64,000 bases of DNA, taken from assembly GCF_001424645.1 (NCBI RefSeq), contig NZ_LMQR01000001.1, positions 1,670,149 through 1,734,148 of the forward strand, in the 5' to 3' direction. Positions 2,198-63,356 of the stretch are shown here, piece by piece. Origin of the DNA: Frigoribacterium sp. Leaf415 (GTDB lineage: Bacteria > Actinomycetota > Actinomycetes > Actinomycetales > Microbacteriaceae). Under the pieces are notes generated by a model that worked only from the letters and a program-made list of their open reading frames with translations, ran no database searches and had not been told where the DNA came from. Position 1 is the stretch's first letter, and each line of letters begins with the position of its first letter. Both the position numbers and the translations under genes were made by a program.

Positions 2198-3751
2198 CTA
2201 CGGTCGCGCGGGCGGCCCGGCCGGCGGGTCGAGCGGCGCGTCGGGCAGTGCCGCGTCGGGCAGTGCCGTGTCGGGCAGTGCCGTGTCGGGCAGTGCCGTG
2301 TCGGGCAGCGGCTCGGTCATGGCCGTCGACGAGAACGGCAGCAGCGGCTCGGTCGGCAGCGGCAGCGTCGGGTTGCTCGGCACCTCGATCGTCATCGGGA
2401 TGCTCACCGTGACGATGGTCGGCCCGCCCTGCGGGCTGCTGATGTCGAGGAAGCCGCCGAGGCCCACGAGGCGCTCCTGCACCCCGGCGAGACCGTGGCC
2501 GTCGCGCAGGCCGGCGCCGCCGCGCCCGTCGTCGGTCACGACGAGCTCGAGCAGTGTGCCGATGCCGTCGGGAGCCTGCCGCGTGCGCAGCACGAGGTCG
2601 GCACTGGCCGCCTCGGCGTGCTTGCCCGTGTTCGTCACCAGTTCGGACGCGATGAAGTACGCGTTGCGCTCGATGTCGCTCGGGATCACGACGCGCGCGG
2701 GCACCCGGTTGAGCATCGTGGTCGGAACCACCGAGCGGTCGACGAGCGACTCGAGGGCCGCGACCAGGCCGCGATCCAGGAGCAACGGAGGCGCGAAACC
2801 GCGGGACAGGGCGCGCAGCTCCTCGAGGGCCTCGCGGGACTGCACCCGCGCCTCCTCGATGAGGGTCTTGCTCTTCTCGGGATCGTTGTCGACGGCGCGG
2901 GAGGCCGCCGCGAGGTCCATCTGCAGGCGGACCAGGCGCTGCTGCGGGCCGTCGTGGATGTCGCGCTCGAGCCGGCGGAGGGCCGTGCCCTCGGCGGACA
3001 GGGCCGCCGTCCGCGAGATCTCGCGGTCGGCGAGCTCGACCTCGAGCTGCTCGCTGCGGAAGCCGCCGAGCATGACGGCGGCGATCGCCTGGTGCATGAC
3101 GACGAACCCGTGCACGACGTACGGGTAGACCAGCACGACGCCGGCGAAGAGTGCGAGGGCGAGGACGACGAGCACCGCGCCTCCGCCGTTGCCGATCGCG
3201 GACGCCCAGTTGAAGGTGTCGAACGGCGGGAGCGCCTGGAAGACGAGCACGACCCCGAGGACCGCGAGCACCGGGCCGGCCAGCAGGCCCACGAGGACGA
3301 AGGTCGTGAAGCCCGCCACGATCGGGAAGACCACGACGCCGTAGAGCAGGTAGAGCCAGTAGTGCGGGTTGGCGAAGACCGAGACCGCCCGCACGAAGCG
3401 GTTCGTGGACCGGCCCCACTCGGTGTTGGGCGTCCAGTCGACGGGTCGGATCGGTCGGTCGCTGGCCCAGCCCAGGCGGAGCACCTCGAAGGTGCCGAAC
3501 CACCGGGCGATCCAGAGGGCGCCGAAGACGACGACCGCCAGGAAGACGAGCGTGAAGAGCGAGTCGCTCGACCCGCTGACCGTGTGCAGGAACAACGAGG
3601 CGGCCACCGTCACGATGACGACGAGGACGGCCGAGAGCGCGACGTAGCCGAGTTCGCGGGGCAACTCGCGCCAGCGTCGTCGGTAGCCGCCGGGGCGGGA
3701 CGGTGGTGAGAGGTAGGGGTTCGCGGCGGTGATGGTGGTCTCCTGGATCAT
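2198..3751 (-). CDS. Membrane sensor histidine kinase (HisKA_3 type)
   Basis: A 517-residue kinase, cognate partner of the downstream regulator. The N-terminal half (about 36-230) holds four to six hydrophobic segments and resembles the 'putative sensor' membrane domain common in actinobacterial NarL-type kinases. The dimerisation and phosphotransfer motif is RDIHDGPQQRL with His266. The ATPase domain follows with the N box ASELVTNTGKHAEA and a glycine-rich GHGLAGVQERL. The last 35 residues are unusual: tandem LPDTA-type pentapeptides encoded by five 15-bp repeats (2239-2308), then a Pro-rich end. The ATG at 3751 matches the start of the hydrophobic domain. The 185-bp region before it is shared divergently with dps. 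Confidence 0.92.
   Translation of the reverse strand: MIQETTITAANPYLSPPSRPGGYRRRWRELPRELGYVALSAVLVVIVTVAASLFLHTVSGSSDSLFTLVFLAVVVFGALWIARWFGTFEVLRLGWASDRPIRPVDWTPNTEWGRSTNRFVRAVSVFANPHYWLYLLYGVVVFPIVAGFTTFVLVGLLAGPVLAVLGVVLVFQALPPFDTFNWASAIGNGGGAVLVVLALALFAGVVLVYPYVVHGFVVMHQAIAAVMLGGFRSEQLEVELADREISRTAALSAEGTALRRLERDIHDGPQQRLVRLQMDLAAASRAVDNDPEKSKTLIEEARVQSREALEELRALSRGFAPPLLLDRGLVAALESLVDRSVVPTTMLNRVPARVVIPSDIERNAYFIASELVTNTGKHAEAASADLVLRTRQAPDGIGTLLELVVTDDGRGGAGLRDGHGLAGVQERLVGLGGFLDISSPQGGPTIVTVSIPMTIEVPSNPTLPLPTEPLLPFSSTAMTEPLPDTALPDTALPDTALPDAALPDAPLDPPAGPPARP
2239..2308. repeat. 15-bp tandem repeat inside the kinase 3' end
   Basis: The octamer TCGGGCAG recurs at 2241, 2256, 2271, 2286 and 2301 within a 15-bp unit, in frame with the kinase. 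It encodes repeated LPDTA/LPDAA peptides. Unit number could vary by slippage without breaking the frame. Confidence 0.85.
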
Positions 3752-3838
3752 GCCTTCGAGCCTGGTCTGAGCGGGGCGTCCACCCCATGGTGCCAGCGCC
3801 CGGAACGCCGGTGGGGTTATCCCCCCTCACGAGCCGGG

Positions 3839-3872
3839 TGAGGTGAGGCTGGCCTAGGTGAGCCGAGCCTCA
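3839..3872. promoter_or_regulatory. Two overlapping DtxR/IdeR-like iron boxes upstream of dps
   Basis: Positions 3839-3857 (TGAGGTGAGGCTGGCCTAG) and 3854-3872 (CTAGGTGAGCCGAGCCTCA) each match about 14 of 19 positions of the DtxR/IdeR consensus as I remember it (TWAGGTWAGSCTWACCTWA). They end just upstream of the predicted -35 of dps. In mycobacteria, iron-loaded IdeR bound upstream of bfrB acts as an activator, so similar control of a ferritin-like gene is plausible here. Confidence 0.6.
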
Positions 3873-3878
3873 GCTTGC

Positions 3879-3906
3879 TTGCGGAATTCTCCCAGACGTC
3901 TAGCGT
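3879..3906 (+). promoter_or_regulatory. dps promoter
   Basis: TTGCGG at 3879-3884 and TAGCGT at 3901-3906 are separated by 16 bp. The ATG is 31 nt downstream of the -10 and is preceded by an AGGAAAGGA ribosome-binding site. Confidence 0.6.
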
Positions 3907-3936
3907 TGCCTCCATCGTCTAGGAAAGGACCACGTC

Positions 3937-6873: not shown

Positions 6874-8319
6874 TCATCCGTCGAGCTCCGTCACCGGGCG
6901 CATGCTCATGCCTCCGGAGCCGCGCAGCAGCGTGACCCGGCCGTCGCCGTCGAACTCGTAGCGCATGGTCTCGCCCACCGATCCGAAGCCGTTGCCCTGC
7001 GCGATGAGCACCTCGCGGGGCCCGGTCACCCTCAGGCGGTCGAGCCCGTCGACGGGATCGGAGGCACCGGGGTGCAGCGCGACCAGGTTCTCGCCCAGCA
7101 GGGCGACGTCGACGATGCCGAACTCGCCCGCGAACCGGCCGGTGAACCGGGCCGGGTCGACATCGGACGAGGAGGCGCGGGTCGCCAACCCGGCGGGGGC
7201 CGCCTCCCGAGCCAGGTCGAGCAGGCGCAGCACGCCGGACGAGAGGGAGGTGGCGGGTCCGTCGACGGCGTTGGTGAGGACCGAGACGGCCAGCCCGATC
7301 GAGGGATCGAAGAGCGTGCGGGTGATGTGTCCCGGGTACCCGCCGGAGTGCCCGACCACGCGGTGCCCGCCGACGCGGTCGATCACGAACCCGAGGCCGT
7401 AGTGAGCCGAGGCCGGCTGCGACGCGTCGGACTGCCAGGCCTCCCGTTGGGCGAGCCGCTTGCTGTGCTCGCTCAGCAGGCGCTCGTCCCCGTCGAAGTG
7501 CGCCGAGGCGTAGCGCACCAGGTCGGAGGCCGTGCCGTAGAAACCCGTCGCCGCCGCCATGGCCCGGGTGTCGACGTGATCGAGCCTCACCCGGGTCTGC
7601 GACACGTGGCGGCCGCTGTGGCCCGCCGCGTACTCGTCGGCGCGGGCGTCGTCCCACTCGGGCCCCGTGTGGGTGAGGCCGAGGCGGTCGACGATCGACT
7701 CGGTCACGAACTCGCCGTACGACCGACCGGACGCCGCCGCGACGACCAGGCCGAGCAGCGAGTACCCGAGGTTGCTGTAGTTGAAGGCGGACCCCGCGGG
7801 CGCCTTGTCGCCGTGGTCGAGCAGCATGTCGAGCAGCTCGTCCTCGTCGGGGAACGGACGGCCGTGCTGCCAGTAGTCGCCGTCGAGGCCGTCCCGGATG
7901 ACTCCGGCACCGTGCTCGAGCAGCTCGCGGACGGTGGCGTCGGCCAGCGGCGACCCCGCCTCGGCCAGCCGCGGCACGAACGTCCCCACGGGGTCGTCGA
8001 GTCGGAGGGCTCCCCGCTCGACGAGCTGCAGGACGGCCGTGGCGGTGAAGGTCTTCGAGTGCGAGGCGATGCGGAACAGGTGCTCCGTGGTCAGCGGGAC
8101 CCGCGCCTCCTCGTCCGCCAGGCCGTGGGCGGACGACAGCTGCAGGCCGCCGTCGAACCAGACCGCCGTCTGCACCCCGGGCACCCGCTCGCGCCAGCGG
8201 CGGTAGGCCAGCCACCCGTCGACGTAGGGCAGGGCGGACCGCAGGTCGGCGACCTGCTGCGCGGTGAGGGCGGGGGTGGCGGTCGAGGGGGTCACGGGTC
8301 CTCCGGTGGGGGGCGTCAT
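6874..8319 (-). CDS. Serine hydrolase of the class C beta-lactamase/D-aminopeptidase family
   Basis: A 481-residue penicillin-binding-type hydrolase. It has the active-site tetrad SHSK (SxxK) in FRIASHSKTFTATAVLQL, a YSN-type second motif in FNYSNLGYSLLG, and HSG in VGHSGGYPGH where lactamases have KTG. A C-terminal beta-rich extension (about 370-480) resembles that of esterase or D-aminopeptidase members. No signal peptide is seen, so it is probably cytoplasmic. The start ATG at 8319 overlaps the permease stop by 4 bp. Its place in a peptide importer operon points to cleavage of imported D- or modified peptides. A beta-lactamase role cannot be excluded but is less likely without a signal. 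Confidence 0.85.
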   Translation of the reverse strand: MTPPTGGPVTPSTATPALTAQQVADLRSALPYVDGWLAYRRWRERVPGVQTAVWFDGGLQLSSAHGLADEEARVPLTTEHLFRIASHSKTFTATAVLQLVERGALRLDDPVGTFVPRLAEAGSPLADATVRELLEHGAGVIRDGLDGDYWQHGRPFPDEDELLDMLLDHGDKAPAGSAFNYSNLGYSLLGLVVAAASGRSYGEFVTESIVDRLGLTHTGPEWDDARADEYAAGHSGRHVSQTRVRLDHVDTRAMAAATGFYGTASDLVRYASAHFDGDERLLSEHSKRLAQREAWQSDASQPASAHYGLGFVIDRVGGHRVVGHSGGYPGHITRTLFDPSIGLAVSVLTNAVDGPATSLSSGVLRLLDLAREAAPAGLATRASSSDVDPARFTGRFAGEFGIVDVALLGENLVALHPGASDPVDGLDRLRVTGPREVLIAQGNGFGSVGETMRYEFDGDGRVTLLRGSGGMSMRPVTELDG

Positions 8320-9209
8320 TGCTGGCGGCGGGGGTCGAGGGCGGCACGCAGGGTGTCGCCGAGGCTGATGATGCTGAGCACGGTCACGGCCAGGAACAGC
8401 GCCGGGAAGACGAGCAGGTGCGGTGCGTTCTGGAACTGGCTCGACGCGCTCGAGAGCTGCAGGCCCCACGAGATGGCAGGAGCCTCGAGCCCGATGCCCA
8501 GATAGGTCAACGAGCTCTCGGCGACGATCACGCCACCGACCGTGATGGTCGCGACGACGAAGACCGGCGAGAGCGAGCTCGGCAGCACGTAGCGCGTCAC
8601 GATGCGCCAGGTCGAGAGGCCCATGGTGCGCGCGGCGAGCACGAAGTCCGCCTGCCGCACCGAGCGCACCGAACCGCGGACGAGGCGCGCCATCGTCGGC
8701 CAGCCGAACAGGGCGAGCACCAGCGAGACCGTCAGCACGGACCGCTCGCCCGCGCTGTTCAGCACCACGACGGCGCCCAGCAGCAGGGGGAAGCCGAGGA
8801 AGACGTCGGTCAGGCGCGACAGGGCCGCGTCGACGATGCCGCCGTACAGACCGGCGATCGTGCCCACGACGATCGCCACGACCATCGACAGCACCGTGGT
8901 CAGCAGGCCGACGGACAAGGAGGCGCGGGTGCCGTGGATCACGTTGGCGTAGACGTCGCAGCCCTGCAGGTCGAACCCGAAGGGGTGACCGCCCGTCGGG
9001 TCGGCACCGCTGAGGTTGAGGTCGCAGACGCGCGGGTCGCCGTGACCGAACAGGCCGGCGAAGAGGCCGGGGAAGATCGCGATCAGGGCCAGCACGGCGA
9101 TCACGGCGGCCGGCACGAAGAACCCCGGACGCCGGACGGCACGCCTCAAGGGGTGACGACGACCGTCGGCGAGCGACGGGGCGACGGGGGTGGTGAAGCT
9201 CTCGGTCAT
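8316..9209 (-). CDS. Peptide ABC transporter permease (DppC type)
   Basis: A 297-residue inner-membrane permease, one half of the importer channel. The N-terminal extension, first membrane segment (about 30-55), a periplasmic stretch with two Cys around a DLNLSGADPTGGHPFG motif, and the later five segments follow the DppC/OppC plan. The EAA loop for ATPase contact is visible as VLAARTMGLSTWRIVTRYVL, followed by SSLSPVFVV. Both ends overlap neighbours by 4 bp (ATGA), so it is translated as part of the polycistron. Confidence 0.94.
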   Translation of the reverse strand: MTESFTTPVAPSLADGRRHPLRRAVRRPGFFVPAAVIAVLALIAIFPGLFAGLFGHGDPRVCDLNLSGADPTGGHPFGFDLQGCDVYANVIHGTRASLSVGLLTTVLSMVVAIVVGTIAGLYGGIVDAALSRLTDVFLGFPLLLGAVVVLNSAGERSVLTVSLVLALFGWPTMARLVRGSVRSVRQADFVLAARTMGLSTWRIVTRYVLPSSLSPVFVVATITVGGVIVAESSLTYLGIGLEAPAISWGLQLSSASSQFQNAPHLLVFPALFLAVTVLSIISLGDTLRAALDPRRQQ

Positions 9210-10135
9210 CGGCGCACTCTCGGGTCGAGCAGGGCATGGATCGCGTCGACCAGGAGGCTGGTGACGAGGAAGACGAGGATCAGCGCGGTCGAGATGCCGA
9301 CCACCGTGGCGCCCTCGTGGCTGCGGATGGCCCCGAAGAGCAGGTTGCCGACGCCCGGCAGGTTGAAGATGCCCTCGATGATGACCGTGCCGCCGAGCAG
9401 GTAGCCGAGGTCGGTCGCGAGGAACGTCGCGGTCGGGATCAACGAGTTGCGCATCACGTGCACCCCGATGACCCGCCGCGGCGTGAGTCCCTTGGCCCGA
9501 GCCGTCCGGACGTAGTCCGAGCTCAGGTTCTCGAGCACGGAGGCGCGGGTCAGGCGCGACACCGAGGCCAGGCCGAACAGCGCGATCACGATGGCGGGCA
9601 GCACGTAGGCCGTCGGCCACCCGGTCGTCACGCCGGCGACGGGGAACCAGTCGAGCCGGACCGCGAAGACGAGCTGCAGCGTCACGCCCACCACGAAGAC
9701 CGGGATCGCGCTGGCGACGATGGTGCCGCCGAGGATGGTCCGGTCGACCAGCGTGCCGCGCTTCAGCGCCGACACCACGCCGAGGCCGATGCCCACGACG
9801 ATCTCGAGCAGCCAGGCCGACAGGGCGAGCGTGACGGTGACCGGCCACCGGCTGGCCATCTGGTCGGCGACCGACTGCCCGGTGAAGGTCGTGCCGAAGT
9901 CGCCCCGGAAGAGCCCGCCGATGTAGCGCGTGTACTGCTGCCAGAGCGGCTCGTCGAGGTGGTACTCGGCGCGCAGGGCGCGGACGACCGCGTCGCTGAG
10001 CGGACGGTCCCCGCCGAGCGCCCTGATCGGGTCGCCGGGCAGGGCGAAGACCATGACGTAGATCACGAAGGTCACGCCGACGAAGACGACGGCGAGGCCG
10101 CCGACGCGCTCGACCACGGCGAGGACGGTCTTCAT
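9206..10135 (-). CDS. Peptide ABC transporter permease (DppB type)
   Basis: A 309-residue permease, partner of the DppC-like protein. It begins with the family N terminus: first membrane segment VGGLAVVFVGVTFVIYVMVF, then the LPGDPIRAL motif and the periplasmic EYHLDEPLWQQY region. The EAA loop is VRTARAKGLTPRRVIGVHVM, followed by RNSLIPTATF. Six membrane helices are expected. The ATG at 10135 overlaps the peptidase stop. The order binding protein, peptidase, DppB, DppC is one operon. Confidence 0.94.
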   Translation of the reverse strand: MKTVLAVVERVGGLAVVFVGVTFVIYVMVFALPGDPIRALGGDRPLSDAVVRALRAEYHLDEPLWQQYTRYIGGLFRGDFGTTFTGQSVADQMASRWPVTVTLALSAWLLEIVVGIGLGVVSALKRGTLVDRTILGGTIVASAIPVFVVGVTLQLVFAVRLDWFPVAGVTTGWPTAYVLPAIVIALFGLASVSRLTRASVLENLSSDYVRTARAKGLTPRRVIGVHVMRNSLIPTATFLATDLGYLLGGTVIIEGIFNLPGVGNLLFGAIRSHEGATVVGISTALILVFLVTSLLVDAIHALLDPRVRR

Positions 10136-11571
10136 CGTGGGGCCGGCCCGGTCGCGTCCCCGGCTGTGCTTCCGGCCGCGAGGTGGGCCGCAGCCGCCAG
10201 CACGGCGCCGTACTGGACGCCCACCAGGCTCGAGATCGGGATGACCTCGGCCCGGTCGGCGGCCGCGGCCTCGGCCTGCCAGGCGGTGTACAGCACGGCG
10301 GTCTCGTCGACCAGGCGACGCAGGGGCGCCGTCGCCGTGCCGGCGACCGCCTCGGCCTCGACCGCACGGAGGAGCATGCCGCCGTAGCGCAGTCGGAAGC
10401 AGTGCACGAGGTCCTCGCAGGAGAAGCGCTCGGCGACGGTGGCGGGACGGACCGACTCCGGGCTCGCGGCCCGCGCACGGTCGACGGCCCCCATGCGGAC
10501 GAGCATCGGGACGAAGGCGCGCGAGGCCCGCAGGAAGGGCGACTCGAACGTGAGGAGGGGCTCCGCCCGCGAGAGGAGCTCGACGAGCGCCTCCCCCGTG
10601 GCGGTCATCTCACCGCCCGTCCGCCGCAGGAGGTCGGCGTACGACTCGTCGGTCGGCGACTCGTCGTCGGCGTCGGGGTGCTTCCAGTACGGCAGCTCGG
10701 CCACGACCCCGAGGGTGCCGTGTCGGCTCGCGTACTCGCTCGACGACGAGCCGGCGATCTCGAGCGCGGGGTCGATCCCGAGCGACTCGAGGTAGTCGTA
10801 GGCGTCGGCGATCGTGCCGGTGCCGAACACCGCCGGCGCGTACCGCTCGAGGAACGGCGACTCGGGCTCGCCCGTGTCGAGCGGCAGCCCGAGCGACGCG
10901 GGCACCGCGTGCAGCACCTCGGTCAACTCGGGCACCGGACGGCTCAGGTAGTAGTAGACGCCGCCCATCTCGCCGTTGTGGAGGCTCACGTAGAGATCGG
11001 GCCGCAGCTCGTCGATCAGGCGCATCAAGCCGAGCGTCTCGGGCATCACGCGGTCGAAGTAGGCGTCCTTGTACGAGGTCGGGAAGGTCCACTCGACCTG
11101 CTCGTCGGGCGCCGGCCGGTAGAAGCGCCGTGCGTAGTGGCCCCGGTCCCCCGGGTCGGCGAACCAGCCCTCGTTGAGGCGGCCGCCGTCGGGGTCGATG
11201 CTCGGCACGATGTGCCAGGTGGCGTCGAGCGCCGTCCGCAGGTCGTCGTCGGCGCAGAGCGTCTCGGCGAGGTGGATCGCCGTCCACGACCCGATCGGCT
11301 CGTTGGGGTGGACCCCGCCGACGATCAGGTGGTCGCGCGAGCCCGAGCCGACGGAGTACATCGGGATCGGCTCGCCCAGGCGGCTCGTCGCCACCCGTCG
11401 ACTCGAGACGAGACCGGGGTTCTCGCGCTCGAGGCGGGCGAAGTGCCGCCAGAGGTCGTCGAGGGTGGGGAACCCGTCGAGCGGGGGCACCGCCCCGGCC
11501 CGACGGACGATGTCGTCCGTCGAGCCGACGACGGCGGAGGAGGCGCGGGTGACGCGGTCGTGGATCGTCAC
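10132..11571 (-). CDS. M14-family zinc carboxypeptidase in the peptide uptake operon
   Basis: A 479-residue metallocarboxypeptidase. Zinc ligands of the M14 fold are visible: HPNE (His and Glu) in VGGVHPNEPIGSW, and the third His in YVSLHNGEMGG. The substrate-binding region has PSIDPDGGRLNEGW, and the catalytic Glu is likely that in VVAELPYW. About 130 C-terminal residues form an extra helical domain. The GTG start at 11571 overlaps the binding protein stop (GTGA). No signal peptide is present, so it should act in the cytosol on imported peptides. The usual neighbours of Dpp systems do not include this enzyme, so the operon looks like a dedicated uptake-and-trim pathway. Confidence 0.86.
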   Translation of the reverse strand: MTIHDRVTRASSAVVGSTDDIVRRAGAVPPLDGFPTLDDLWRHFARLERENPGLVSSRRVATSRLGEPIPMYSVGSGSRDHLIVGGVHPNEPIGSWTAIHLAETLCADDDLRTALDATWHIVPSIDPDGGRLNEGWFADPGDRGHYARRFYRPAPDEQVEWTFPTSYKDAYFDRVMPETLGLMRLIDELRPDLYVSLHNGEMGGVYYYLSRPVPELTEVLHAVPASLGLPLDTGEPESPFLERYAPAVFGTGTIADAYDYLESLGIDPALEIAGSSSSEYASRHGTLGVVAELPYWKHPDADDESPTDESYADLLRRTGGEMTATGEALVELLSRAEPLLTFESPFLRASRAFVPMLVRMGAVDRARAASPESVRPATVAERFSCEDLVHCFRLRYGGMLLRAVEAEAVAGTATAPLRRLVDETAVLYTAWQAEAAAADRAEVIPISSLVGVQYGAVLAAAAHLAAGSTAGDATGPAPR

Positions 11572-13343: not shown

Positions 13344-14852
13344 TCAGGACGTCCGGTGGGTCCAACGGCCGCCCAGGAGAGTGCCCGAGACCGGGAGCCG
13401 CCGGAGGTCGTCGTCGGTCGCGGTGAGCGGGTCGGCGTCGGTGACGACGAGATCGGCGACGGAGCCGACCTCCACCCTCGCCCGGCCGCCCGTGGAGGCC
13501 GCGAGCGCCGCCGAGGCGACCACGCGCTGCTCGGGGTGCCACGGCTCGCGTCCGTCGCGCGACCGCGAGATCGCCGCGGCCATCGCCACCCAGGGGTCGA
13601 GCGGGGCCACCGGTGCGTCCGACCCGAGCCTGAGGCTCACCCCCGCGGCGACGAGGCTCTCGAACGGGTAGGCGCGGTCGGTCCGGCCAGCCCAGAGCCG
13701 GTCGGCCACGTCGCGGTCGTCCATGGCGTGCTCGGGCTGCACGCTGGCCACGATGCCGAGGCGCGCGAACCGGTCGACGTCGCGCGCGTCGAGCAACTGC
13801 GCGTGCTCGATGCTGCCGCCGCAGCCGACCTGCTCGAGGGCGTCGAGCGCCTGGGCGTTCGCGGCGTCGCCGATCGCGTGCACGGCCGGCACGAACCCCG
13901 CCGAGGAGGCGCGGCGCAGCCACCCGACGAGCTCGTCGGTCTCGTAGATGCGCACCCCCCGGGCCGCGGGGTCGCCCTCGAGCCCCGGGTACGGGTCGTG
14001 GCACCACGCGGTGCGGGTGCCGAGGGAGCCGTCGGTGATGATCTTGAACGGCCCCATGGTGACGAGGCCGTCGGTGCCCGGGATCACGTCACCGGTGCGC
14101 AGCCCGCGGGCGACGACGGCGTCGAGGTCGCGCGGGTAGACCCCGGGACGGATGCGCAGCCCGCGGGTCCCACCGGCCACGCGCCGGCTCCAGCGGTCGA
14201 GCGACAGCGTCATCTCGAGGTCGACGACGCCGACGACCCCCCGCGCGGCGGCCGCGTCGACGGCCTCGCCGACCCACCGGTCGAGCTGCTCGTCCGGCAC
14301 GACGCTCACGGCGGCGCTGACGTCGAAGGCCGGCTGCTCGCGCAGCAGGCCGGTCGGGTGGTCGGCGTGACCGTGACGGGCCAGGGCGGACGAGTCGAGC
14401 CAGACGGAGTGCAGGTCGTTGCTGACCAGGACGACCGACACGTCGCCCGCCACCGAGTCGAGCAGCGCACGACTCGGGGCGTCGGGCCAGAGCGCGTCCT
14501 GGAAGCCGTAGCCGACGAGGGTGCCGCCCGCCTCGACCGGCTCGTCGCGCAGGCGCTCCCCCACGATCGAGGCCGCCTCGGCGGCGGACCGCGCCCGCGA
14601 CAGGTCGAGCCGACGCCGCACCAGCGCCCACTGGTCCATGTGGACGTGGGAGTCCCAGAGGCCCGGGGCGAGCCAGCGGCCGTCGAGGTCGACCACCTCG
14701 GCACCGTCGGGGGCGAGACCGGACGCGAGGGCGACGACTCGGCCGCCGTCGAGCAGGACGTCCACGGGGGCGGGCCCGCCGCCGACCAGGCGGACGTCCC
14801 TCAGCAGCGTCCGTCGCGCCTCCTCGGCCCGGGTGCCGCCGCCGACCGTCAT
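13344..14852 (-). CDS. YtcJ-like metal-dependent amidohydrolase
   Basis: A 502-residue amidohydrolase of the YtcJ/NfdA branch. Metal and catalytic residues are visible in order: HVH in LWDSHVHMDQWALV, Lys in MGPFKIITDGSLGTRTAW, His in VPAVHAIGDAANAQAL, His in GSIEHAQLLDARDV, and Asp in LGSDAPVAPLDPW. The N-terminal beta-sandwich LLRDVRLVGGG and C-terminal strand DPLTATDDDLRRLPV are typical. The true substrate of this branch is usually unknown (N-formyl or other amide compounds). The ATG at 14852 overlaps the PaiB gene stop (ATGA), so the two are co-translated. Confidence 0.88.
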   Translation of the reverse strand: MTVGGGTRAEEARRTLLRDVRLVGGGPAPVDVLLDGGRVVALASGLAPDGAEVVDLDGRWLAPGLWDSHVHMDQWALVRRRLDLSRARSAAEAASIVGERLRDEPVEAGGTLVGYGFQDALWPDAPSRALLDSVAGDVSVVLVSNDLHSVWLDSSALARHGHADHPTGLLREQPAFDVSAAVSVVPDEQLDRWVGEAVDAAAARGVVGVVDLEMTLSLDRWSRRVAGGTRGLRIRPGVYPRDLDAVVARGLRTGDVIPGTDGLVTMGPFKIITDGSLGTRTAWCHDPYPGLEGDPAARGVRIYETDELVGWLRRASSAGFVPAVHAIGDAANAQALDALEQVGCGGSIEHAQLLDARDVDRFARLGIVASVQPEHAMDDRDVADRLWAGRTDRAYPFESLVAAGVSLRLGSDAPVAPLDPWVAMAAAISRSRDGREPWHPEQRVVASAALAASTGGRARVEVGSVADLVVTDADPLTATDDDLRRLPVSGTLLGGRWTHRTS

Positions 14853-17149: not shown

Positions 17150-17193
17150 CCGCGCCTCCTCGTGGCCAGCAGTCGCGGCCCGGGGAGGCGCGG
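17150..17193. repeat. Inverted pair of the dispersed 10-mer between rpiB and the DsbA-like gene
   Basis: CCGCGCCTCC at 17150-17159 and GGAGGCGCGG at 17184-17193 can pair over 10 bp with a 24-nt loop. The pair lies downstream of the DsbA-like gene and may serve as its terminator. Confidence 0.6.
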
Positions 17194-17915: not shown

Positions 17916-20456
17916 GTGCCCGGAGAGAACCTCACCCGCGTCGAGGCGCAAGAGCGCAAGAACGTCGTCGACGTGCAGTCGTACGAGATCGCCCTCGACC
18001 TGACCCGCGGCGACGAGGTGTTCGGCAGCTCGACCACCGTGCGCTTCACCGCCACCCCCGGCGCGTCGACCTTCATCGACGCGCTCACCCGCACCGTGCA
18101 CTCGGTGACCCTCAACGGCGCCGCGCTCGACGTCGACGCGGTCTCCGACGGCGTCCGCATCCAGCTCGCCGAGCTGGCCGCCGACAACGTGCTCGAGGTC
18201 GTCGCCGACGCCGAGTACACCAACACCGGCGAGGGCCTGCACCGCTTCGTCGACCCGGTCGACGGCGAGGTCTACCTCTACTCGCAGTTCGAGGTGCCCG
18301 ACAGCCGCCGCGTCTTCGCGGTCTTCGAGCAGCCCGACCTCAAGGCGACGTTCCAGTTCACGGTCACCGCGCCCGCACGCTGGCAGGTCGTCAGCAACCA
18401 GACCACCCCCGACCCCGTCGTCGACGGCGAGACCGGCACCTGGACGTTCTCGCCCACGCCCGTGCTGTCGAGCTACGTCACGGCGATCATCGCCGGCCCG
18501 TACGACGTCGTCCGCAGCGACCTCACCAGCTCCGACGGCCGAACGATCCCGCTGGGCATCTTCACGCGTCGCTCGCTCACGGAGTACCTCGACGCCGACT
18601 ACATCTTCGAGAAGACCCGTCAGGGCTTCGCCTACTACGAGGACAAGTTCGACTACGCGTACCCCTTCGAGAAGTACGACCAGCTCTTCGTGCCGGAGTT
18701 CAACGCCGGCGCCATGGAGAACGCGGGTGCCGTCACCTTCGTCGAGACCTACGTCTTCCGCAGCAAGGTGACCGACGCCATCAAGGAACGCCGCGTCGTC
18801 ACGATCCTGCACGAGCTCGCCCACATGTGGTTCGGCGACCTCGTCACGATGAAGTGGTGGAACGACCTCTGGCTGAACGAGTCGTTCGCCGAGTGGGCCT
18901 CGACCATCTCGACCGCCGAGGCGACCGAGTGGACCGAGGCCTGGACCACCTTCCAGGCGATGGAGAAGAGCTGGGCCTACCGCCAGGACCAGCTGCCGTC
19001 GACCCACCCCGTCGTCGCCACGATCACCGACCTCGAGGACGTCCAGGTCAACTTCGACGGCATCACCTACGCCAAGGGCGGGTCGGTCCTCAAGCAGCTC
19101 GTCGCCTGGGTCGGCATCGACGCCTTCTACGCCGGCGTCGCCGCGTACTTCAAGAAGCACCACCACTCGAACACTGAGCTGAGCGACCTGCTCGTCGAGC
19201 TCGAGGCGACCTCGGGCCGCGAGCTGACCAGCTGGTCGAAGCTCTGGCTCGAGACCGCGGGCGTCAACACCCTTCGTCCCGAGCTCGAGGTCGACGAGGA
19301 CGGCGTCATCACGTCGTTCGCCGTGCTGCAAGAGGCCCCGGCCGACTACCCCACCATCCGACCGCACCGCCTCGCCATCGGCCTCTACGCCCTGCAGGGT
19401 GACGCCCTGGTGCGGACCGACCGCGTCGAGATCGACGTCGACGGCACCCGCACCGAGGTGCCCGAACTGGTCGGCCTGAACCGCGGCGACCTCGTGCTGA
19501 TCAACGACGACGACCTCGCCTACGCGAAGATCCGCCTCGACGAGGTCTCGCTCGCCACCGCGATCGCGCACCTGTCGAAGATCTCGAACCCACTGGCGCG
19601 CGCCCTGGTCTGGGGCTCGGTCTGGGACGCGACGCGCGACGCCGAGACCTCGGCCTCCGACTACGTACGACTCGTGCTCGACAACATCGCGACCGAGACC
19701 GAGTCGACGACGATCCGCACCACGCTCTCGCAGCTGCTGCAGACCGCCCGCAGCTACGTCGCCCCCGCACGCCGCGCCTCCACGATCACCGAGGTCGGCG
19801 ACGGCCTCTGGGCCCTGGCCCAGGGTGCCGAGGCCGGGTCGGACGCACAGTTCCAGTTCGTCACCTTCTTCGCCGCGATCGCGTCCACCGAGGCACACGA
19901 GGAGGCGCTGGCCGGTCTGCTCGACGGATCGCTCGCCCTCGAGGGCCTCACCGTCGACACCGACCTGCGCTGGCAGCTGCTCGAGGGCCTCGTGCTCGTC
20001 GGCGGCGCCGGCGAGGCCGAGATCGACGCCGCCCTCGCCGAGGACAACACGGCGAACGGCGCCCAGGCGGCCGCACGGGCCCGCGCGACGATCGCGACCA
20101 CCGAGGGCAAGCTCGCCGCCTTCGCGTCGGTCGTCGACAGCGCCGAACAGCCCAACGCCATCGTCCGCGCGACGACCCTCGGGTTCCAGCACACGAACGA
20201 CCCGGCGATCCTGCAGCCGCTCGTCGAGCGCTACTTCTCGTCGCTCACCGGCATCTGGGAGTCGCGCAGCTACCACATCGCCGACACCCTCGTCTCGGGG
20301 CTCTACCCGGCCGGCCTCGCCGACCAGGCGCTCGTCGACGCGTCGTACGCGTGGCTCGAGGCGAACCCCGAGACGCCGGCCCTGCGCCGCATCGTGAGCG
20401 AGAGCGTCGCGGGCGTCGAGCGGGCCCTGCGGGTGCAGGCGGTCGACCAGCAGTAG
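17916..20456 (+). CDS. pepN: Aminopeptidase N
   Basis: An 846-residue M1-family zinc aminopeptidase that removes N-terminal residues from peptides in the cytoplasm. The substrate motif is GAMEN at 265-269. The zinc site is HELAH from 299, with the third ligand in WLNESFAEW. The C-terminal half has the ERAP1-like helical domain of actinobacterial PepN. The GTG at 17916 is chosen because it follows ATGGAG and gives the conserved start PGENLTRVEAQERKNVVDVQ. A TAGGCT -10 lies about 50 nt upstream, so this gene has a leader. A strong hairpin follows the stop. Confidence 0.96.
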   Translation: MPGENLTRVEAQERKNVVDVQSYEIALDLTRGDEVFGSSTTVRFTATPGASTFIDALTRTVHSVTLNGAALDVDAVSDGVRIQLAELAADNVLEVVADAEYTNTGEGLHRFVDPVDGEVYLYSQFEVPDSRRVFAVFEQPDLKATFQFTVTAPARWQVVSNQTTPDPVVDGETGTWTFSPTPVLSSYVTAIIAGPYDVVRSDLTSSDGRTIPLGIFTRRSLTEYLDADYIFEKTRQGFAYYEDKFDYAYPFEKYDQLFVPEFNAGAMENAGAVTFVETYVFRSKVTDAIKERRVVTILHELAHMWFGDLVTMKWWNDLWLNESFAEWASTISTAEATEWTEAWTTFQAMEKSWAYRQDQLPSTHPVVATITDLEDVQVNFDGITYAKGGSVLKQLVAWVGIDAFYAGVAAYFKKHHHSNTELSDLLVELEATSGRELTSWSKLWLETAGVNTLRPELEVDEDGVITSFAVLQEAPADYPTIRPHRLAIGLYALQGDALVRTDRVEIDVDGTRTEVPELVGLNRGDLVLINDDDLAYAKIRLDEVSLATAIAHLSKISNPLARALVWGSVWDATRDAETSASDYVRLVLDNIATETESTTIRTTLSQLLQTARSYVAPARRASTITEVGDGLWALAQGAEAGSDAQFQFVTFFAAIASTEAHEEALAGLLDGSLALEGLTVDTDLRWQLLEGLVLVGGAGEAEIDAALAEDNTANGAQAAARARATIATTEGKLAAFASVVDSAEQPNAIVRATTLGFQHTNDPAILQPLVERYFSSLTGIWESRSYHIADTLVSGLYPAGLADQALVDASYAWLEANPETPALRRIVSESVAGVERALRVQAVDQQ

Positions 20457-27123: not shown

Positions 27124-27244
27124 GACGGGAGTCTCGCGAAGGCGGGCCGCCCCCGGGACGGCACCCGCGCCTCCTTGTGGAGAAGGACGACGGGGGCCGC
27201 TCGGGGGACGACGCGACGGCAGGTCCTCCGTCGACGACCGGACC

Positions 27245-36873: not shown

Positions 36874-36914
36874 CACCGCGCCTCCTGCACGGGTCCGGGG
36901 CAGGAGGCGCGGTG
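36874..36914. terminator. Hairpin of two dispersed 10-mers after the MFS gene
   Basis: CACCGCGCCTCCTGC (36874-36888) and GCAGGAGGCGCGGTG (36900-36914) are perfect 15-bp arms with an 11-nt loop, starting 9 nt after the stop. No T tract follows. Confidence 0.8.
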
Positions 36915-47395: not shown

Positions 47396-48127
47396 ATGCA
47401 CCTGAACGTCACGACCACCGGCGACGGCGACCGCCACGTCGCCCTCGTCCACGGGCTCGGCGCCGACGGCGCGACCTGGAAGCCGATCGTCGACCGGTTC
47501 GTCGCGACCGGCTCGTACACGGTCACCACCCTCGACCTGCGGGGTCACGGTGAGAGCGACCGGGCGTCGTCGTACCGGCTCGACGAGTTCGCGGACGACG
47601 TCGCCTCGGCCCTGCCCCAGGGACTGCACGGTGTCGTCGGACACTCGCTGGGCGGCTCGGTCCTCGTCCGCGCCGTCGAGCGGCTGCAGCCTCGGACGGC
47701 CGTCTACCTCGACCCGGGGTTCTCCCTCGCCCTCCCGACGACGGGCCTCGCCGGACGGTTGTTCTGGGCCGTGCCCACCGTGACGATGGGCGTCGCGGCC
47801 CTCGCCCGGGCGCGGAAGGGCGCGCGGCTGCGCGCCGGGTACGACGACGCGACCCGCGCCTCCTCGGATCAGGCCCGTGCCCGGTTCGACTCGGGCATGG
47901 CGACGGGCGTGTTCCGCGACGTGGCCTTCCACCCGGTCGCGACGACGGCGCCGGCGGTGCCCTCGGTCATCGTGCTGTCCGACGACTCCCCCGCCGTCCT
48001 GCCCGAGCGTCTCGTGTCGGGCTACCAGCAGGCCGGCTGGCAGATCCGCCGCCTGCCGGGCGTGCACCACGACATGCAGCTCGAGGCACCCCACCGCACC
48101 TTCACCCTGCTGGCCGAGCTGCTCTGA
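47396..48127 (+). CDS. Alpha/beta hydrolase
   Basis: A 243-residue hydrolase with a complete catalytic set: oxyanion HGLGADGATWKPI, DLRGHGESDRASS, nucleophile elbow GVVGHSLGGSV (Ser), acid in VIVLSDDSPAVLP and His in GVHHDMQLEAP. A short cap region lies around 130-180. The start is probably the ATG at 47396, though an in-frame ATG at 47387 is possible. The gene is divergent from the DUF1801-like gene. The substrate is unknown. Confidence 0.88.
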   Translation: MHLNVTTTGDGDRHVALVHGLGADGATWKPIVDRFVATGSYTVTTLDLRGHGESDRASSYRLDEFADDVASALPQGLHGVVGHSLGGSVLVRAVERLQPRTAVYLDPGFSLALPTTGLAGRLFWAVPTVTMGVAALARARKGARLRAGYDDATRASSDQARARFDSGMATGVFRDVAFHPVATTAPAVPSVIVLSDDSPAVLPERLVSGYQQAGWQIRRLPGVHHDMQLEAPHRTFTLLAELL

Positions 48128-49696: not shown

Positions 49697-50557
49697 ATGG
49701 TCACCGTCCACCACCGCACCGCCTCCGTCGACGGACTCGACGTCTTCTACCGCGACGCCGGCCCCGCCGACGCGCCCGTTCTCGTCCTCCTGCACGGCTA
49801 CCCCACGAGCTCGCACATGTTCCGCCACCTCATCCCCGCTCTGGCCGACCGGTACCGCGTCATCGCCCCGGACCACATCGGCTTCGGCCGCTCCTCCGCT
49901 CCGTCGGTCGACGAGTTCGAGTACACCTTCGAGGCCCTGGCGCGGGTGACCGGTCGTTTCCTGTCGACCATCGGCGTCGCGCGGTACGCGATCTACGTGC
50001 AGGACTACGGCGCCCCCGTCGGGTGGCGCCTCGCGCTGGCCGAGCCCGATGCGGTGACCGCTGTCGTCTCGCAGAACGGCAACGCGTACGAAGAAGGCTT
50101 CGTGCCGAGTTTCTGGGATCCGATCTGGGCCGACGCCGCCGAACGGACGTCCCGGACGCGCGACGCGCTCCGGCCCGCCCTGGGCCGCGAGGCGGTCGAG
50201 TGGCAGTACACCCACGGCGTACCGGACCCCACATCCGTCGACCCCGATGCCTGGGAACACGACCTCGCGCTCCTCGCCCGACCGGGACAGCACGACGTCC
50301 AACTGGCGCTCTTCCGCGACTACGCCACCAACCGCGCCCTGTACCCCGCCGTGCACTCCTGGCTCCGCGCCTCCCGCGTCCCGGTCCTCGCGATCTGGGG
50401 CCGCAACGACGAGATCTTCGATGCCGCCGGTGCGGGTGCGTTCACCCGCGACGCCCCCGACGCTCGCGTCGAGCTCGTCGACGGTGGACACTTCCTGCTC
50501 GAGTCGCACCTCGATGTGGTCGCGGCCACGATCCGGGAGTGGCTCCCGAACACGTGA
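49697..50557 (+). CDS. Epoxide hydrolase/haloalkane dehalogenase-like alpha/beta hydrolase
   Basis: A 286-residue hydrolase. HGYPTSSHMFRHLIPAL is the oxyanion HGxP motif. The nucleophile is Asp rather than Ser, in AIYVQDYGAPVGWRLAL, as in epoxide hydrolases and haloalkane dehalogenases. The acid is in IWGRNDEIFDAAGAG and the His in DGGHFLLESH. GAAGGGG precedes the ATG. A weak inverted repeat TAACC/GGTTA lies at 49666-49693 in the shared region with the CGNR regulator. Probably induced by a xenobiotic or stress signal. Confidence 0.92.
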   Translation: MVTVHHRTASVDGLDVFYRDAGPADAPVLVLLHGYPTSSHMFRHLIPALADRYRVIAPDHIGFGRSSAPSVDEFEYTFEALARVTGRFLSTIGVARYAIYVQDYGAPVGWRLALAEPDAVTAVVSQNGNAYEEGFVPSFWDPIWADAAERTSRTRDALRPALGREAVEWQYTHGVPDPTSVDPDAWEHDLALLARPGQHDVQLALFRDYATNRALYPAVHSWLRASRVPVLAIWGRNDEIFDAAGAGAFTRDAPDARVELVDGGHFLLESHLDVVAATIREWLPNT

Positions 50558-53842: not shown

Positions 53843-54802
53843 TCAGCCCAGCGTCAGCTGTCCGTCGGCCTCGAGCCATTCGAGGCCCTCGACGACGGCC
53901 TGCACCGAGGTGTAGCGCGGGGCGTAGCCGAGAAGGCGGCGGGCCTTCTCGATGCTCATCGAGTGGCTGCGCGAGGCGTGTTGCCACGACGCGTCGCCGT
54001 GCTCGTCGGACGTCTGGTCTCGGAACTCGGCCCACGAGACGAACCGCAGCCGCGCCTCCTGACCGTGGTGCCGCGCGATCGCCTCGGCGAGCCCGCGCAA
54101 GGTGATCGCCCGCTCGCTGACGACGTGGAACGCCTCGCCGACCACCTGCGAGTGCCGTTCGGCGGCGAGCTGGAAGGCCTGCGCGACGTCGTCGGCGTGC
54201 ACGTGATGGACGGTCTCGAGCCCGAGGCCCGGCATGGCGATCTCGCGCCCGGCGGCGAGGGCCTCCCAGACGGAGAGGTCGAGGTTGCCGACCGCGTTGA
54301 TCATCGGCCAGCCCGGACCGGTGATGTGCCCCGGGTGCAACACGATGCTCTGCACTCCGCCCGGGCGCCGCGACTCGCGGAGCAGCAGCTCTTCGACGGC
54401 GGCCTTCTGCGTGCCGTACTCGCCGAACGGGGTGCGCTCGGCTTCTTCGGTGATCGGCACCTCGCGGGACGGGCCGTGCACCCAGACCGTGCCGCAGTGC
54501 ACCAACACGGTGCCCGTGCCCTGCAGGGCGTCGACCATCTGGCGTGCCGACACGACCGTGAAGCAGATCATGTCGATCACGACGTCGGCCCCGAGCCCGG
54601 CGATCTCGCCCGCGAACGTGCCGTCGGCGTCGCCCGCCTCGCGATCGAGCAGGAGGCGCGTGACGCGTGACCACGCCGCGTGCGGTCGGTACGGCTCGGA
54701 GGCCCCGCGGCTGACGGCGACCACCTCGTGGCCGGCCTCGACGAGTCGCGGGACGAGGAAGCCACCCACATGGCCGGTGGACCCGATGACGACGATCTTC
54801 AC
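53843..54802 (-). CDS. NAD-dependent epimerase/dehydratase family protein
   Basis: A 319-residue SDR. MKIVVIGSTGHVGGFLVPRL is the nucleotide-binding motif, and VIDMICFTVVSARQMVDAL follows. The catalytic Tyr/Lys pair is replaced by YGTQKAAVEELL (Tyr and Lys spaced by 3), and LHPGHITGPGWPMINAVGN is typical of the atypical/isoflavone reductase-like branch. The C terminus has a cap with TVHHVHADDVAQAFQLAAE. The substrate is unknown. The upstream 294 bp to the protease gene contains no gene. Confidence 0.88.
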   Translation of the reverse strand: MKIVVIGSTGHVGGFLVPRLVEAGHEVVAVSRGASEPYRPHAAWSRVTRLLLDREAGDADGTFAGEIAGLGADVVIDMICFTVVSARQMVDALQGTGTVLVHCGTVWVHGPSREVPITEEAERTPFGEYGTQKAAVEELLLRESRRPGGVQSIVLHPGHITGPGWPMINAVGNLDLSVWEALAAGREIAMPGLGLETVHHVHADDVAQAFQLAAERHSQVVGEAFHVVSERAITLRGLAEAIARHHGQEARLRFVSWAEFRDQTSDEHGDASWQHASRSHSMSIEKARRLLGYAPRYTSVQAVVEGLEWLEADGQLTLG

Positions 54803-55096
54803 GACGCCACCCCCGTCACGATCGAGAGGGCCTGGAGCGGACGGCGGGGACGGGGAGTGGCAGCGCTGCGCACGGCATCGGAGGACATGGCCCGACGCTA
54901 CCCCGCGCCTCCGACACCGGCGTACCCCGCATGGGGGTCACCCGGCGTCCCCCCAAGTGCCCACTGTGCCCGGGCCCAGGATTCTTCAGACTTCCTATGA
55001 GGAGCACAGCGGCTCGTCGGATCACCGGGCACGGCCCGCGACGAGCCACCCGCTCCGCGCGTCCCATCCGGCACGCGCGACCCGACGAGGAGAACC
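54803..55096. other. Intergenic region between divergent epimerase and subtilase genes
   Basis: 294 bp without a credible gene. It holds one dispersed 10-mer (54903-54912, complement) and GC-rich inverted repeats (CCCCGCATGGGG; GCCCACTGTGCCCGGGCCC area). Near the protease gene is TTCAGACTTCCTATGAGGAG, which might supply a -10. The ribosome-binding site of the protease is GACGAGGAGA. Confidence 0.5.
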
Positions 55097-56674
<1,578 letters not shown>

Positions 56675-61440: not shown

Positions 61441-61494
61441 CCCCGTCGGGTCGCGCCGTGTCGCGCCCGACTACCGTCGCCCCCGGCGAGACGT

Positions 61495-61536
61495 CACGAC
61501 ATGCCCCTCACCTCCTGATGTGAGCGGCATGTCGTG
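61495..61536. terminator. Long hairpin between treY and treZ
   Basis: Arms CACGACATGCCCCTCAC and GTGAGCGGCATGTCGTG pair with a single C-C mismatch around CTCCTGAT. No T tract. It lies 54 nt after the treY stop and 47 nt before the treZ ATG, so it may weaken readthrough or protect the mRNA end rather than fully stop it. Confidence 0.65.
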
Positions 61537-61583
61537 CCTTCTCGACCTCCCCTCCCCCGCCCCTTCCGAACCCGAGGAGACCG

Positions 61584-63356
61584 ATGAGCGTCTACGACGT
61601 CTGGGCCCCGAACGCGACCACCGTGCACCTGCACCTCGACGGCGACCTGCTGCCGCTGACGGCCGAGCCCGACACGGGCTGGTGGCGCGCCCCCGCCGAC
61701 CTCGATCGGGGCCCGGGTCACCGCTACGGCTTCGTGCTCGACGGCGGCGACTCCCCCGAGGGCGAGACGCCACTGCCCGACCCCCGCTCGCGGCGCCAGC
61801 CCGACGGTGTCCACGGGCTCAGCGAGACCTACGACCCGAGCGCCTTCGCGTGGACCGACGACGCGTGGACCGGCCGCCAGCTGGCCGGCTCGGTCGTCTA
61901 CGAGCTGCACGTCGGCACCTTCACGCCCGGAGGCACGCTCGACTCGGCGATCGAGAAGCTGCCGCACCTCGTCGACCTCGGCGTCGACCTGGTCGAGCTG
62001 TTGCCGGTCAACGGCGTCAACGGCCGCTGGAACTGGGGCTACGACGGCGTCGACTGGTTCACGGTGACCGACAACTACGGCGGCCCCGAGGCGTACCAGC
62101 GCTTCGTCGACGCCGCACACGCGGCCGGCCTCGGCGTCGTGCAGGACGTCGTCTACAACCACCTCGGTCCGTCGGGCAACTACCTGCCCCTGTTCGGCCC
62201 GTACCTGTCGAGCAAGCACGCCAACACCTGGGGCGACAACGTCAACCTCGACGATGACGGCGCCCACGAGGTGCGCGAGTTCATCCTCGACAACACGGCC
62301 ATGTGGCTCGACGAGTACCACGTCGACGGTCTGCGCCTCGACGCGGTGCACGCGCTCAAGGACGACAGCGAGGTCCACCTGCTGCAGGAGCTGGCCGAGC
62401 GCACCGCGGCCCTCAGCAGCCACCTGCGCCGCCCGCTCTCGCTGATCGCCGAGAGCGACCTCAACGACCCGCGCCTCGTCACCCCGCGCGACGGCGGCGG
62501 CTTCGGCCCCGACCACCGCCAGGGCTACGGCCTCGACGCGCAGTGGAGCGACGACTTCCACCACGCCGTCCACGTCGCGCTGACCGGCGAGACGACGGGT
62601 TACTACGCCGACTTCGAGCCCCTCGGCGCCCTCGCCAAGGTGCTCACCAAGGGCTTCTTCCACGACGGCACCTGGTCGTCGTTCCGCGAGGCGACGCACG
62701 GCCACCCGGTCGACACCGAGCACATGCCGACCTGGCGCCTGGTCGTCGCCAACCAGAACCACGACCAGATCGGCAACCGGGCGATCGGCGACCGCCTGGC
62801 CGCGACGCTCGACGACGGGCAGCTGATCATCGCCGCCACGCTGACCCTGGCCGGCCCGTACACCCCGATGCTCTTCATGGGCGAGGAGTGGGGCGCCTCG
62901 ACCCCGTGGCAGTTCTTCACCTCGCACCCCGAGCACGACCTCGGCGAGGCGACCGCGAAGGGCCGCATCGCCGAGTTCGCGAAGATGGGCTGGGACGAGT
63001 CGTCCGTGCCCGACCCGCAGGAGCCCTCGACCTTCGAGAACAGCAAGCTCGACTGGTCCGAGCTCGAGACCGGCCGCCACGCGGTGCTGCTCGACGCGTA
63101 CCGCCGCCTCGGCGCCCTGCGCCGCAGCGAGCCCGCGCTCACCGACCCCCGCTTCGGCGAGACCGGCGTCGAGTACGACGGCGACGCCCGCTGGCTGGTG
63201 CTGACGCGTGGCGACCTGCGGATCGCGATCAACCTCGCCGACCAGGAGGCGCGGGTCGCGGTGAGCGCCGAGACCGTCCTGTTCGCCAGCGACGAGTCGA
63301 TCGTCCCGGGTGCGAGCCTGCTGCTGCCGGCGCACTCGGTCGCGATCGTCCGCTGA
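61584..63356 (+). CDS. treZ: Malto-oligosyltrehalose trehalohydrolase
   Basis: A 590-residue GH13 enzyme that releases trehalose from maltooligosyl-trehalose. Start [20 protein letters not shown] (N-terminal CBM-like). Catalytic region: [40 protein letters not shown], nucleophile in [17 protein letters not shown], acid/base in [15 protein letters not shown], and [26 protein letters not shown] before the ATG is the ribosome-binding site. A strong hairpin follows the stop. Last gene of the trehalose cluster. Confidence 0.97.

Follow-up and report, generated by a model that had tools for sequence, protein, structure and literature searches.

The genome of Frigoribacterium sp. Leaf415 carries a 10-nt word, GGAGGCGCGG, which is a real, genome-wide and actively maintained DNA word with dialects in a sister genus, and which probably works like a DNA uptake sequence (DUS), i.e., as a watermark of self-DNA in natural transformation. 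We studied a 64-kb stretch (C1:1670149-1734148; hereafter the window) of this 3.42-Mb genome and found 31 exact copies of the word, 16 on the plus strand and 15 on the minus strand. For comparison, 100 dinucleotide-preserving shuffles of the window yielded 1.58 copies on average and 5 at most, and an order-4 Markov model predicted 0.77 copies. The original prediction, which was made from the letters of the window, had listed 30 positions: all of them are correct and a single copy was overlooked (3175, minus strand). The family that it had assumed, Microbacteriaceae, is right as well. Across the entire genome we counted 1,725 copies (867 forward and 858 reverse). A control word, consisting of GGAGGCGCGG read backwards, was found 67 times (37 + 30) and is therefore 26 times rarer.

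Ranked by overrepresentation, the leading 10- to 14-letter words of the window are fragments of a single motif, A-GGAGGCGCGG-(G/T)(T/G)C. We analyzed the anatomy of this motif in a sample of 424 kb around the main contig, which comprises 368 kb of coding sequence (CDS, called with a simple script rather than an annotation pipeline) and 56 kb of non-coding DNA, and which contains 206 copies. The results on placement, orientation and spacing given below refer to this sample. The usual context of the word is A-GGAGGCGCGG-GTC or A-GGAGGCGCGG-TGC, and an A precedes 72% of the copies. On its 3' side the 10-mer continues less distinctly, with a GGTC- or TGC-like stretch, information returns to background about 7 letters further on, and we found no conserved body past ~18 positions around the word. 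The word is GC-rich, extends in most cases to AGGAGG, and is not palindromic since it differs from its own reverse complement. Its copies are overdispersed along the sampled DNA.

A total of 115 copies were located in CDS, where all six relative frames are occupied, and 91 were intergenic, which confirms the earlier claim that copies lie in differing frames as well as between genes. Their density reaches 1.63/kb in intergenic DNA vs 0.31/kb in CDS. When synonymous codons were shuffled within genes (200 runs), 12.5 ± 3.5 copies were obtained in CDS, with a maximum of 21, relative to the 115 observed, which represents a nine-fold excess. The original prediction had named a count near the Markov expectation and a full explanation by codon bias as the two outcomes that would speak against it, and neither was seen (1,725 vs 67 copies for the former and 115 vs 12.5 for the latter).

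Orientation is balanced across the genome, as had been claimed, and it is also balanced along the sample: the two halves of the main contig contain, respectively, 39/43 and 68/56 copies on the two strands. No arm bias was detected in the 424 kb (cumulative orientation range of 16 vs a permuted mean of 19.2; P = 0.80); the replication origin was not located, but the cumulative range covers any two-arm split. We searched this sample for regular spacing and found none, and the copies are distributed randomly apart from short gaps. Gaps under 60 nt exceed the random expectation (20 vs 7.5), and 15 of these 20 gaps separate copies on opposite strands, 14 of which are 22 to 36 nt apart. A perfect inverted partner no more than 45 nt away accompanies 28 of the 90 intergenic copies that have a called gene on either side, and none of the 115 copies in CDS. 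Sequence around intergenic copies has a lower fold energy than the remaining intergenic DNA (-32.3 vs -26.8 kcal/mol per 70 nt), which is partly an effect of the GC-rich pairs themselves. Relative to neighboring gene ends, 51 copies are in opposite and 45 in same orientation (respectively, 31 and 19 within 60 nt).

We then considered the distribution of the word across genomes. The 15 other Frigoribacterium genomes that we examined all contain 842-1,623 copies each, whereas 44 genomes from other genera have at most 120 each. (Labels used for Frigoribacterium genomes include G002 for Leaf263, G006 for F. endophyticum AS3.20, G011 for PhB116 and G014 for Leaf186.) In a survey of 398 genomes of the family, all ten Frigoribacterium genomes were rich in the word. 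Eight of the 388 remaining genomes combined over 150 copies with a count no less than twice that of the control: seven of the nine Curtobacterium genomes (g53) and one genome of genus g76. The latter (G092) contains 399 copies vs 142 for the control, no motif was found in 100 kb of its sequence (L028, L055-L057, L077), and we do not regard it as part of this system. At the level of the order, counts of GGAGGCNCGG exceeding both 100 copies and 1.3 times the control were found in none of the 247 other genomes; among small counts, a few genomes reach ~2.5 times the control (40 vs 16). The only Frigoribacterium (g1) genome in this set is Leaf415's own, and the set contains no Curtobacterium (g53).

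Many copies are shared at the same positions in the orthologous 40-kb stretches of the 15 relatives. To quantify this conservation, genome pairs were pooled by divergence and compared with control words of the same composition; each pair was counted in both directions and the pairs are non-independent. Among pairs of genomes bearing a type IVa pilus (see below), 81% of the copies (242/297) are identical at 6-9% divergence vs 32% of the control words (1,022/3,152), and 70% (232/333) vs 24% (870/3,599) at 9-12% divergence. At 12-15% divergence 229 of 465 copies are conserved, and at 15-18% divergence 47% (416/883) are conserved vs 12% for the control. The conservation of copy positions in relatives, which had been proposed as a check, is thus far above that of control words in Frigoribacterium pairs. 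Identity inside the motif was 0.923 in CDS and 0.959 in intergenic DNA, relative to 0.859 and 0.789, respectively, in flanks 6-15 nt away. The same trend was observed at third codon positions (0.907 inside the motif vs 0.781 around it).

The copies in the window are distributed as follows:
2846..2855, minus strand, in CDS 2198-3751 (minus); identical in 14 of the 14 relatives aligned there
3175..3184, minus strand, in CDS 2198-3751 (minus); the copy absent from the earlier list
7171..7180, plus strand, in CDS 6874-8319 (minus)
8101..8110, minus strand, in CDS 6874-8319 (minus)
8919..8928, plus strand, in CDS 8316-9209 (minus)
9539..9548, plus strand, in CDS 9206-10135 (minus)
11539..11548, plus strand, in CDS 10132-11571 (minus)
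13905..13914, plus strand, in CDS 13344-14852 (minus); identical in 10 of 15 relatives
17150..17193, perfect copies forming an inverted pair that may fold into a hairpin
17150..17159, minus strand, intergenic; first arm of the pair 17150..17193
17184..17193, plus strand, intergenic; second arm of the pair 17150..17193
19772..19781, minus strand, in CDS 17619-20456 (plus)
27165..27174, minus strand, intergenic; identical in 13 of 15 relatives
28916..28925, plus strand, in CDS 28092-29111 (plus)
31277..31286, minus strand, in CDS 30870-32912 (minus)
32933..32942, plus strand, intergenic
33513..33522, plus strand, in CDS 33002-34300 (minus)
34673..34704, perfect copies forming an inverted pair, with starts 22 nt apart, that may fold into a hairpin
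34673..34682, plus strand, intergenic; first arm of the pair 34673..34704
34695..34704, minus strand, intergenic; second arm of the pair 34673..34704
35044..35053, plus strand, intergenic
36876..36912, perfect copies forming an inverted pair that may fold into a hairpin
36876..36885, minus strand, intergenic; first arm of the pair 36876..36912
36903..36912, plus strand, intergenic; second arm of the pair 36876..36912
43370..43379, plus strand, in CDS 43187-43669 (minus)
43685..43694, minus strand, intergenic
45264..45273, plus strand, in CDS 44534-46045 (minus)
46903..46912, plus strand, in CDS 46867-47397 (minus)
47854..47863, minus strand, in CDS 47387-48127 (plus)
50365..50374, minus strand, in CDS 49697-50557 (plus)
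54050..54059, minus strand, in CDS 53843-54802 (minus)
54903..54912, minus strand, intergenic
55209..55218, minus strand, in CDS 55097-56674 (plus)
63245..63254, plus strand, in CDS 61584-63356 (plus)

We further observed that near-copies are not abundant. The genome's own sample contains 470 exact copies per Mb, and all one-letter variants together amount to 528 per Mb vs 443 per Mb for the variants of the reversed word, i.e., ~19% above, with most of this excess at positions 9 and 10. In the clade of G007, one-letter variants reach 792 per Mb vs 664 for the control. A decaying repeat would leave many near-copies, which indicates that some process keeps exact copies exact. For the DUS of Kingella oralis, allowing one mismatch was reported to raise the count by 21% (PMC3630211). 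The use of all frames, the synonymous shuffling, the in-place conservation, this sharpness and the third codon positions together support the earlier claim that the DNA word itself, rather than a peptide, is maintained. Finally, at 39 gap-free sites with the word in a relative but not in the window (sites repeat among relatives), the window is one letter off in 16 cases, two letters in one case and three or more in 22 cases. This pattern resembles the one reported in Neisseria, where many new DUS are described as arising by recombination and not by point mutation (PMC2397512).

The sister genus presents related words. In a midpoint-rooted tree of topA (68 loci; branch support was not read off), Frigoribacterium and Curtobacterium are sisters and the Rathayibacter group comes next. 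De novo word counts in nine Curtobacterium genomes revealed a shared core, GGAGGC-N-CGG, of which N and the 5' part vary. The following dialects were identified:
CCTGGAGGCGCGG, in G142 and G409
GGAGGCACGG, alongside the G form, in G069 and G249 (C. pusillum DE0370)
GGACGGGAGGCGCGG, in G291 (Curtobacterium ER1/6)
GGACGGGAGGCTCGG, in G359 and G385 (Curtobacterium MMLR14_010)
Two other genomes, G328 and G199, gave weak and mixed dialect signals. Genome-wide, the form with A/T at position 7 is dominant in G359 and G385 (respectively, 491 and 499 copies, vs 79 and 94 for the G form). It is found 367 times in G249 and 187 times in G069, where the G form is still dominant (598 and 688), and 44 times in Leaf415. 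Minor details of the dialects are provisional because samples covered 40-120 kb per genome. Dialects with an invariant core fit the species phylogeny; within Curtobacterium, dialects and the species tree were compared by eye, for three named genomes only. As a separate observation, GGATGC-type words (CGGATGCG, GGATGCGG and TGGATGCCC) are ~3-5 times overrepresented in several other genera of Microbacteriaceae (e.g., L038, L200, L241, L193, L207) and might be another signal; the positive control failed in the comparison of orthologous 20-kb loci.

We also searched for the machinery that could import DNA; gene assignments were made from sequence, and PilM, ComEC, the pilins and TadA are backed by family searches. 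Leaf415 carries comEA-comEC and two pilus operons: one for a type IVa pilus, located between rpoC and rpsL and containing pilB, T, C, pilins, D, M, N and O, and a tad/flp operon adjoining topA, with tadA, tadB/C-like, tadE-like and tadF-like genes and a flp of 86 residues. In Micrococcus luteus, Flp/Tad genes are reported to be required for transformation (PMC4322843). The type IVa pilus is not universal in the genus: PilM is absent in three of 16 Frigoribacterium genomes (G002, G003 and G005; at least 99% complete; L242, L243 and L245), and whole-genome searches found no N_methyl pilin in these three genomes. They form a single clade with full support, which includes Leaf263, and the pilus was apparently lost once in this clade. 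In the 1.5 kb upstream of rpsL, the three genomes share a GNAT-type gene that is absent there in the pilus-bearing G004, and G005 has an extra gene. The shared neighbor fits a single old loss without proving it, since this stretch is too short for the pilus genes even in G004.

The pilus-less genomes G002, G003 and G005 nevertheless contain 1,421, 1,562 and 1,415 copies, respectively, and the clade has kept ComEC and the Tad/Flp ATPase. Within pilus-less pairs, conservation matches that in pilus-bearing pairs: 28 of 38 copies are conserved at 9-12% divergence (control 86/370) and 28 of 47 at 12-15% (control 65/404). One-letter variants are no commoner in this clade than elsewhere (570 vs 505 per Mb for the control, with 510 exact copies per Mb). 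The type IVa pilus therefore does not seem needed for keeping the word, although very recent and separate losses of the pilus would weaken this conclusion. A required type IVa reader had appeared plausible at first because Leaf415 carries the pilus, and we rejected it because this clade keeps the word undecayed. For the same reason, a type IVa pilin is an improbable reader should the word be an uptake signal, and the Tad/Flp pilus or ComEA would then be the most likely candidates.

Density, inverted pairs, in-place conservation, sharpness and dialects are hallmarks of DUS and of the uptake signal sequences (USS) of Pasteurellaceae, which makes an uptake signal the best supported reading of the word. 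The balanced orientation, the higher density between than within genes and the presence of competence genes also agree with such sequences. The original prediction had proposed "an uptake-signal or chromosome-organising word": the first half fits these five properties, while the second finds no positive evidence in the sample, which shows neither arm bias nor regular spacing. Under the uptake proposal, free DNA would be taken up through a type IV filament together with ComEA/ComEC, and a sequence-specific reader at the surface would favor fragments carrying the word. Recombination of these fragments would spread and repair copies, which would then accumulate in both orientations at the cheapest sites (intergenic and synonymous) and would remain sharp without selection on each copy. 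Intergenic inverted pairs probably double as hairpin terminators. Dialects would differ between species because reader and word drift together, and a reader linked to the Tad/Flp pilus or ComEA is likelier than one linked to a minor pilin of type IVa. Uptake, its reader, termination, the recombination drive and the single loss of the pilus are what we infer from these patterns.

Several points weigh against this proposal. ComEC was found in 42 of 42 genomes searched. A TadA-type ATPase was found in 35 of 35, and in 30 of these it exceeds the curated cut-off. Because both also occur in genera that lack the word, these genes do not explain its distribution; moreover, the proposal names no candidate reader protein. 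ComP, a type IV minor pilin, reads the DUS of Neisseria, whereas the type IVa pilus seems dispensable for maintaining the word in Frigoribacterium. One-letter variants show a larger excess in G004 and G006 (970 vs 730 per Mb for the control). Copy density is correlated with GC content (Spearman 0.50; 42 bins). In addition, the bias toward core over accessory DNA reported for neisserial DUS was not observed in the first 41 kb of the window, where density is 0.46/kb in DNA shared by 12-15 relatives and 0.49/kb in DNA shared by 0-3 relatives. Finally, the open-access literature yielded no report of uptake, binding or transformation in Frigoribacterium among the matches listed.

Some regions depart from the general distribution of copies. 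The block 6874-12000 of the window contains five copies and aligns to the 40-kb stretches of just one or two of the 15 relatives, which suggests that it is accessory or relocated, yet word-rich. No copy was found in the 20 kb of L017:1-20000, a lower-GC island (GC 0.655) encoding TniB and Mu-type transposases, several glycoside hydrolases and a pair of MFS transporters; with respect to rarity in recently acquired DNA, this points the other way from the equal core and accessory densities given above. The word also occurs in two small tandem arrays, L015:3359-3470 and L018:2573-2640. One consists of four units at 33-nt spacing, one of them with a one-letter variant, and the other of four exact copies 18 nt apart.

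Other explanations were weighed against the uptake proposal. An intracellular nucleoid-associated or chromosome-organizing protein could bind the word, with selection for binding keeping the copies. A DNA-binding protein that co-evolves with its site would also yield sharp in-place conservation and species dialects, and independence from the type IVa pilus would be natural for it. However, ~1,700 individually selected sites would presumably impose a heavy load, and the sampled 424 kb shows neither arm bias nor regular spacing, with overdispersed copies and none in the acquired island L017; we regard such a binder as rather unlikely. Chi and KOPS (FtsK orienting polar sequences) are strand-biased. 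A recombination or segregation signal of their kind would share with GGAGGCGCGG the properties of being short, overrepresented, non-palindromic and conserved, but no strand bias was seen on either half of the contig and no cumulative orientation signal was detected in the 424 kb. We rejected this explanation on the absence of an orientation signal, which bears out the earlier remark that the word is unlike Chi or KOPS in its balanced orientation, and we leave it a minimal chance. A HIP1-like word, generated and kept by methylation-dependent repair, would account for a word that is extremely abundant in coding as well as non-coding DNA and for the excess of variants at the end positions 9-10 (PMC4390886). 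Nonetheless, GGAGGCGCGG is not a palindrome, and eight of the 16 Frigoribacterium genomes lack C5 methyltransferases (PF00145) although each has the word (adenine and N4 types were not searched). C5 methylation was rejected on this patchy presence, and a HIP1-like origin retains an outside chance.

The inverted pairs and the two small tandem arrays could also evoke a dispersed family of mobile or terminator repeats, such as repetitive extragenic palindromes (REP) or miniature inverted-repeat transposable elements (MITE). Gaps are indeed involved in 180 of the 467 non-conserved copies at 15-18% divergence among pilus-bearing pairs. In close relatives, however, most changes are gap-free (59/70 non-conserved copies at 3-9% divergence), the conserved sequence stops at ~18 positions, and more than half of the sampled copies (115/206) lie in CDS without any perfect inverted partner within 45 nt. 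A mobile repeat was rejected on the lack of a long body and on these gap-free differences, and we give this family of explanations a slight chance. An artefact of codon use, amino acids or base composition, or a set of Shine-Dalgarno-like sites (AGGAGG), would fit a GC-rich word that usually extends to AGGAGG and whose density tracks GC content. But copies are nine times more frequent than expected from synonymous shuffling, occupy six frames and outnumber the reversed word by 26 to one. Likewise, just 7 of 84 start distances fall within 20 nt, and only two of these seven copies are oriented with the gene. Codon or peptide effects were rejected on the shuffling and the use of all frames, and Shine-Dalgarno sites on the positions and orientation of copies; we consider that practically no chance is left to any of them.

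In the literature cited here, uptake sequences are known from two Gram-negative families. In the open-access literature, outside which lie preprints and most subscription papers, no actinobacterial uptake sequence and no mention of this word were found among the matches listed. Uptake-sequence terms that we searched do not occur in the Micrococcus luteus literature examined, and competence and pilus terms do not occur in a Frigoribacterium genome paper. If the uptake proposal is true, GGAGGCGCGG represents a third and unrelated case, in a high-GC Gram-positive host, and self-DNA marking evolves repeatedly. Common leaf bacteria would then be shaped to a major extent by ongoing natural transformation, and the word would provide a sequence tag for transforming them. 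Thanks to the pilus-less clade, it can be tested directly what the reader is. We further propose, more tentatively, that Frigoribacterium and Curtobacterium may share a self-DNA recognition for natural transformation that evolved separately from the neisserial and pasteurellacean systems and is read by Tad/Flp or ComEA instead of a type IVa minor pilin, which would constitute the first Gram-positive uptake-sequence system and whose dialects could act as a recombination barrier between species.

Two observations are unrelated to the above. The stretch L034:1-20000 of G012 contains long G runs, in which GGGGGGGG was counted 53 times, perhaps due to a sequencing artefact. Leaf415 also encodes an ice-binding-like protein (PF11999) at L063:5470-6771, which would be in line with life in the cold or on leaves.

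The word can be compared with several known systems. HIP1 of cyanobacteria is an extremely frequent palindromic word with lineage-specific alternates and cognate methyltransferases (PMC4390886). GGAGGCGCGG resembles it in its extreme frequency and lineage-specific alternates (PMC4390886), but it is non-palindromic and its carriers have no C5 methyltransferase in common. The similarity to USS is broader: a short word with hundreds to thousands of copies, in and between genes, with inverted pairs and multiple dialects per family (PMC2346458; PMC12616744). The USS sequence is unrelated, however, and a bias toward gene termini is reported for it (PMC2346458; PMC12616744); its predicted reader is ComN (PpdA), a type IV minor pilin (PMC12616744). 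The neisserial DUS is a non-palindromic 10-nt word with about 940 to 5,900 copies, whose inverted pairs serve as terminators (PMC3630211; PMC2397512). GGAGGCGCGG is similar to it in length, lack of palindromy, copy number, inverted pairs and conservation amid diverged flanks, in the dominance of exact copies, and in dialects of sister lineages that share an invariant core (PMC3630211; PMC2397512). It differs from DUS in its unrelated sequence and its high-GC Gram-positive host, and its role in uptake is here predicted from sequence. On the side of the machinery, a parallel is the Flp/Tad-dependent transformation of Micrococcus luteus, likewise an actinobacterium (PMC4322843); Leaf415 possesses the same kind of comEA, comEC and tad/flp operon.

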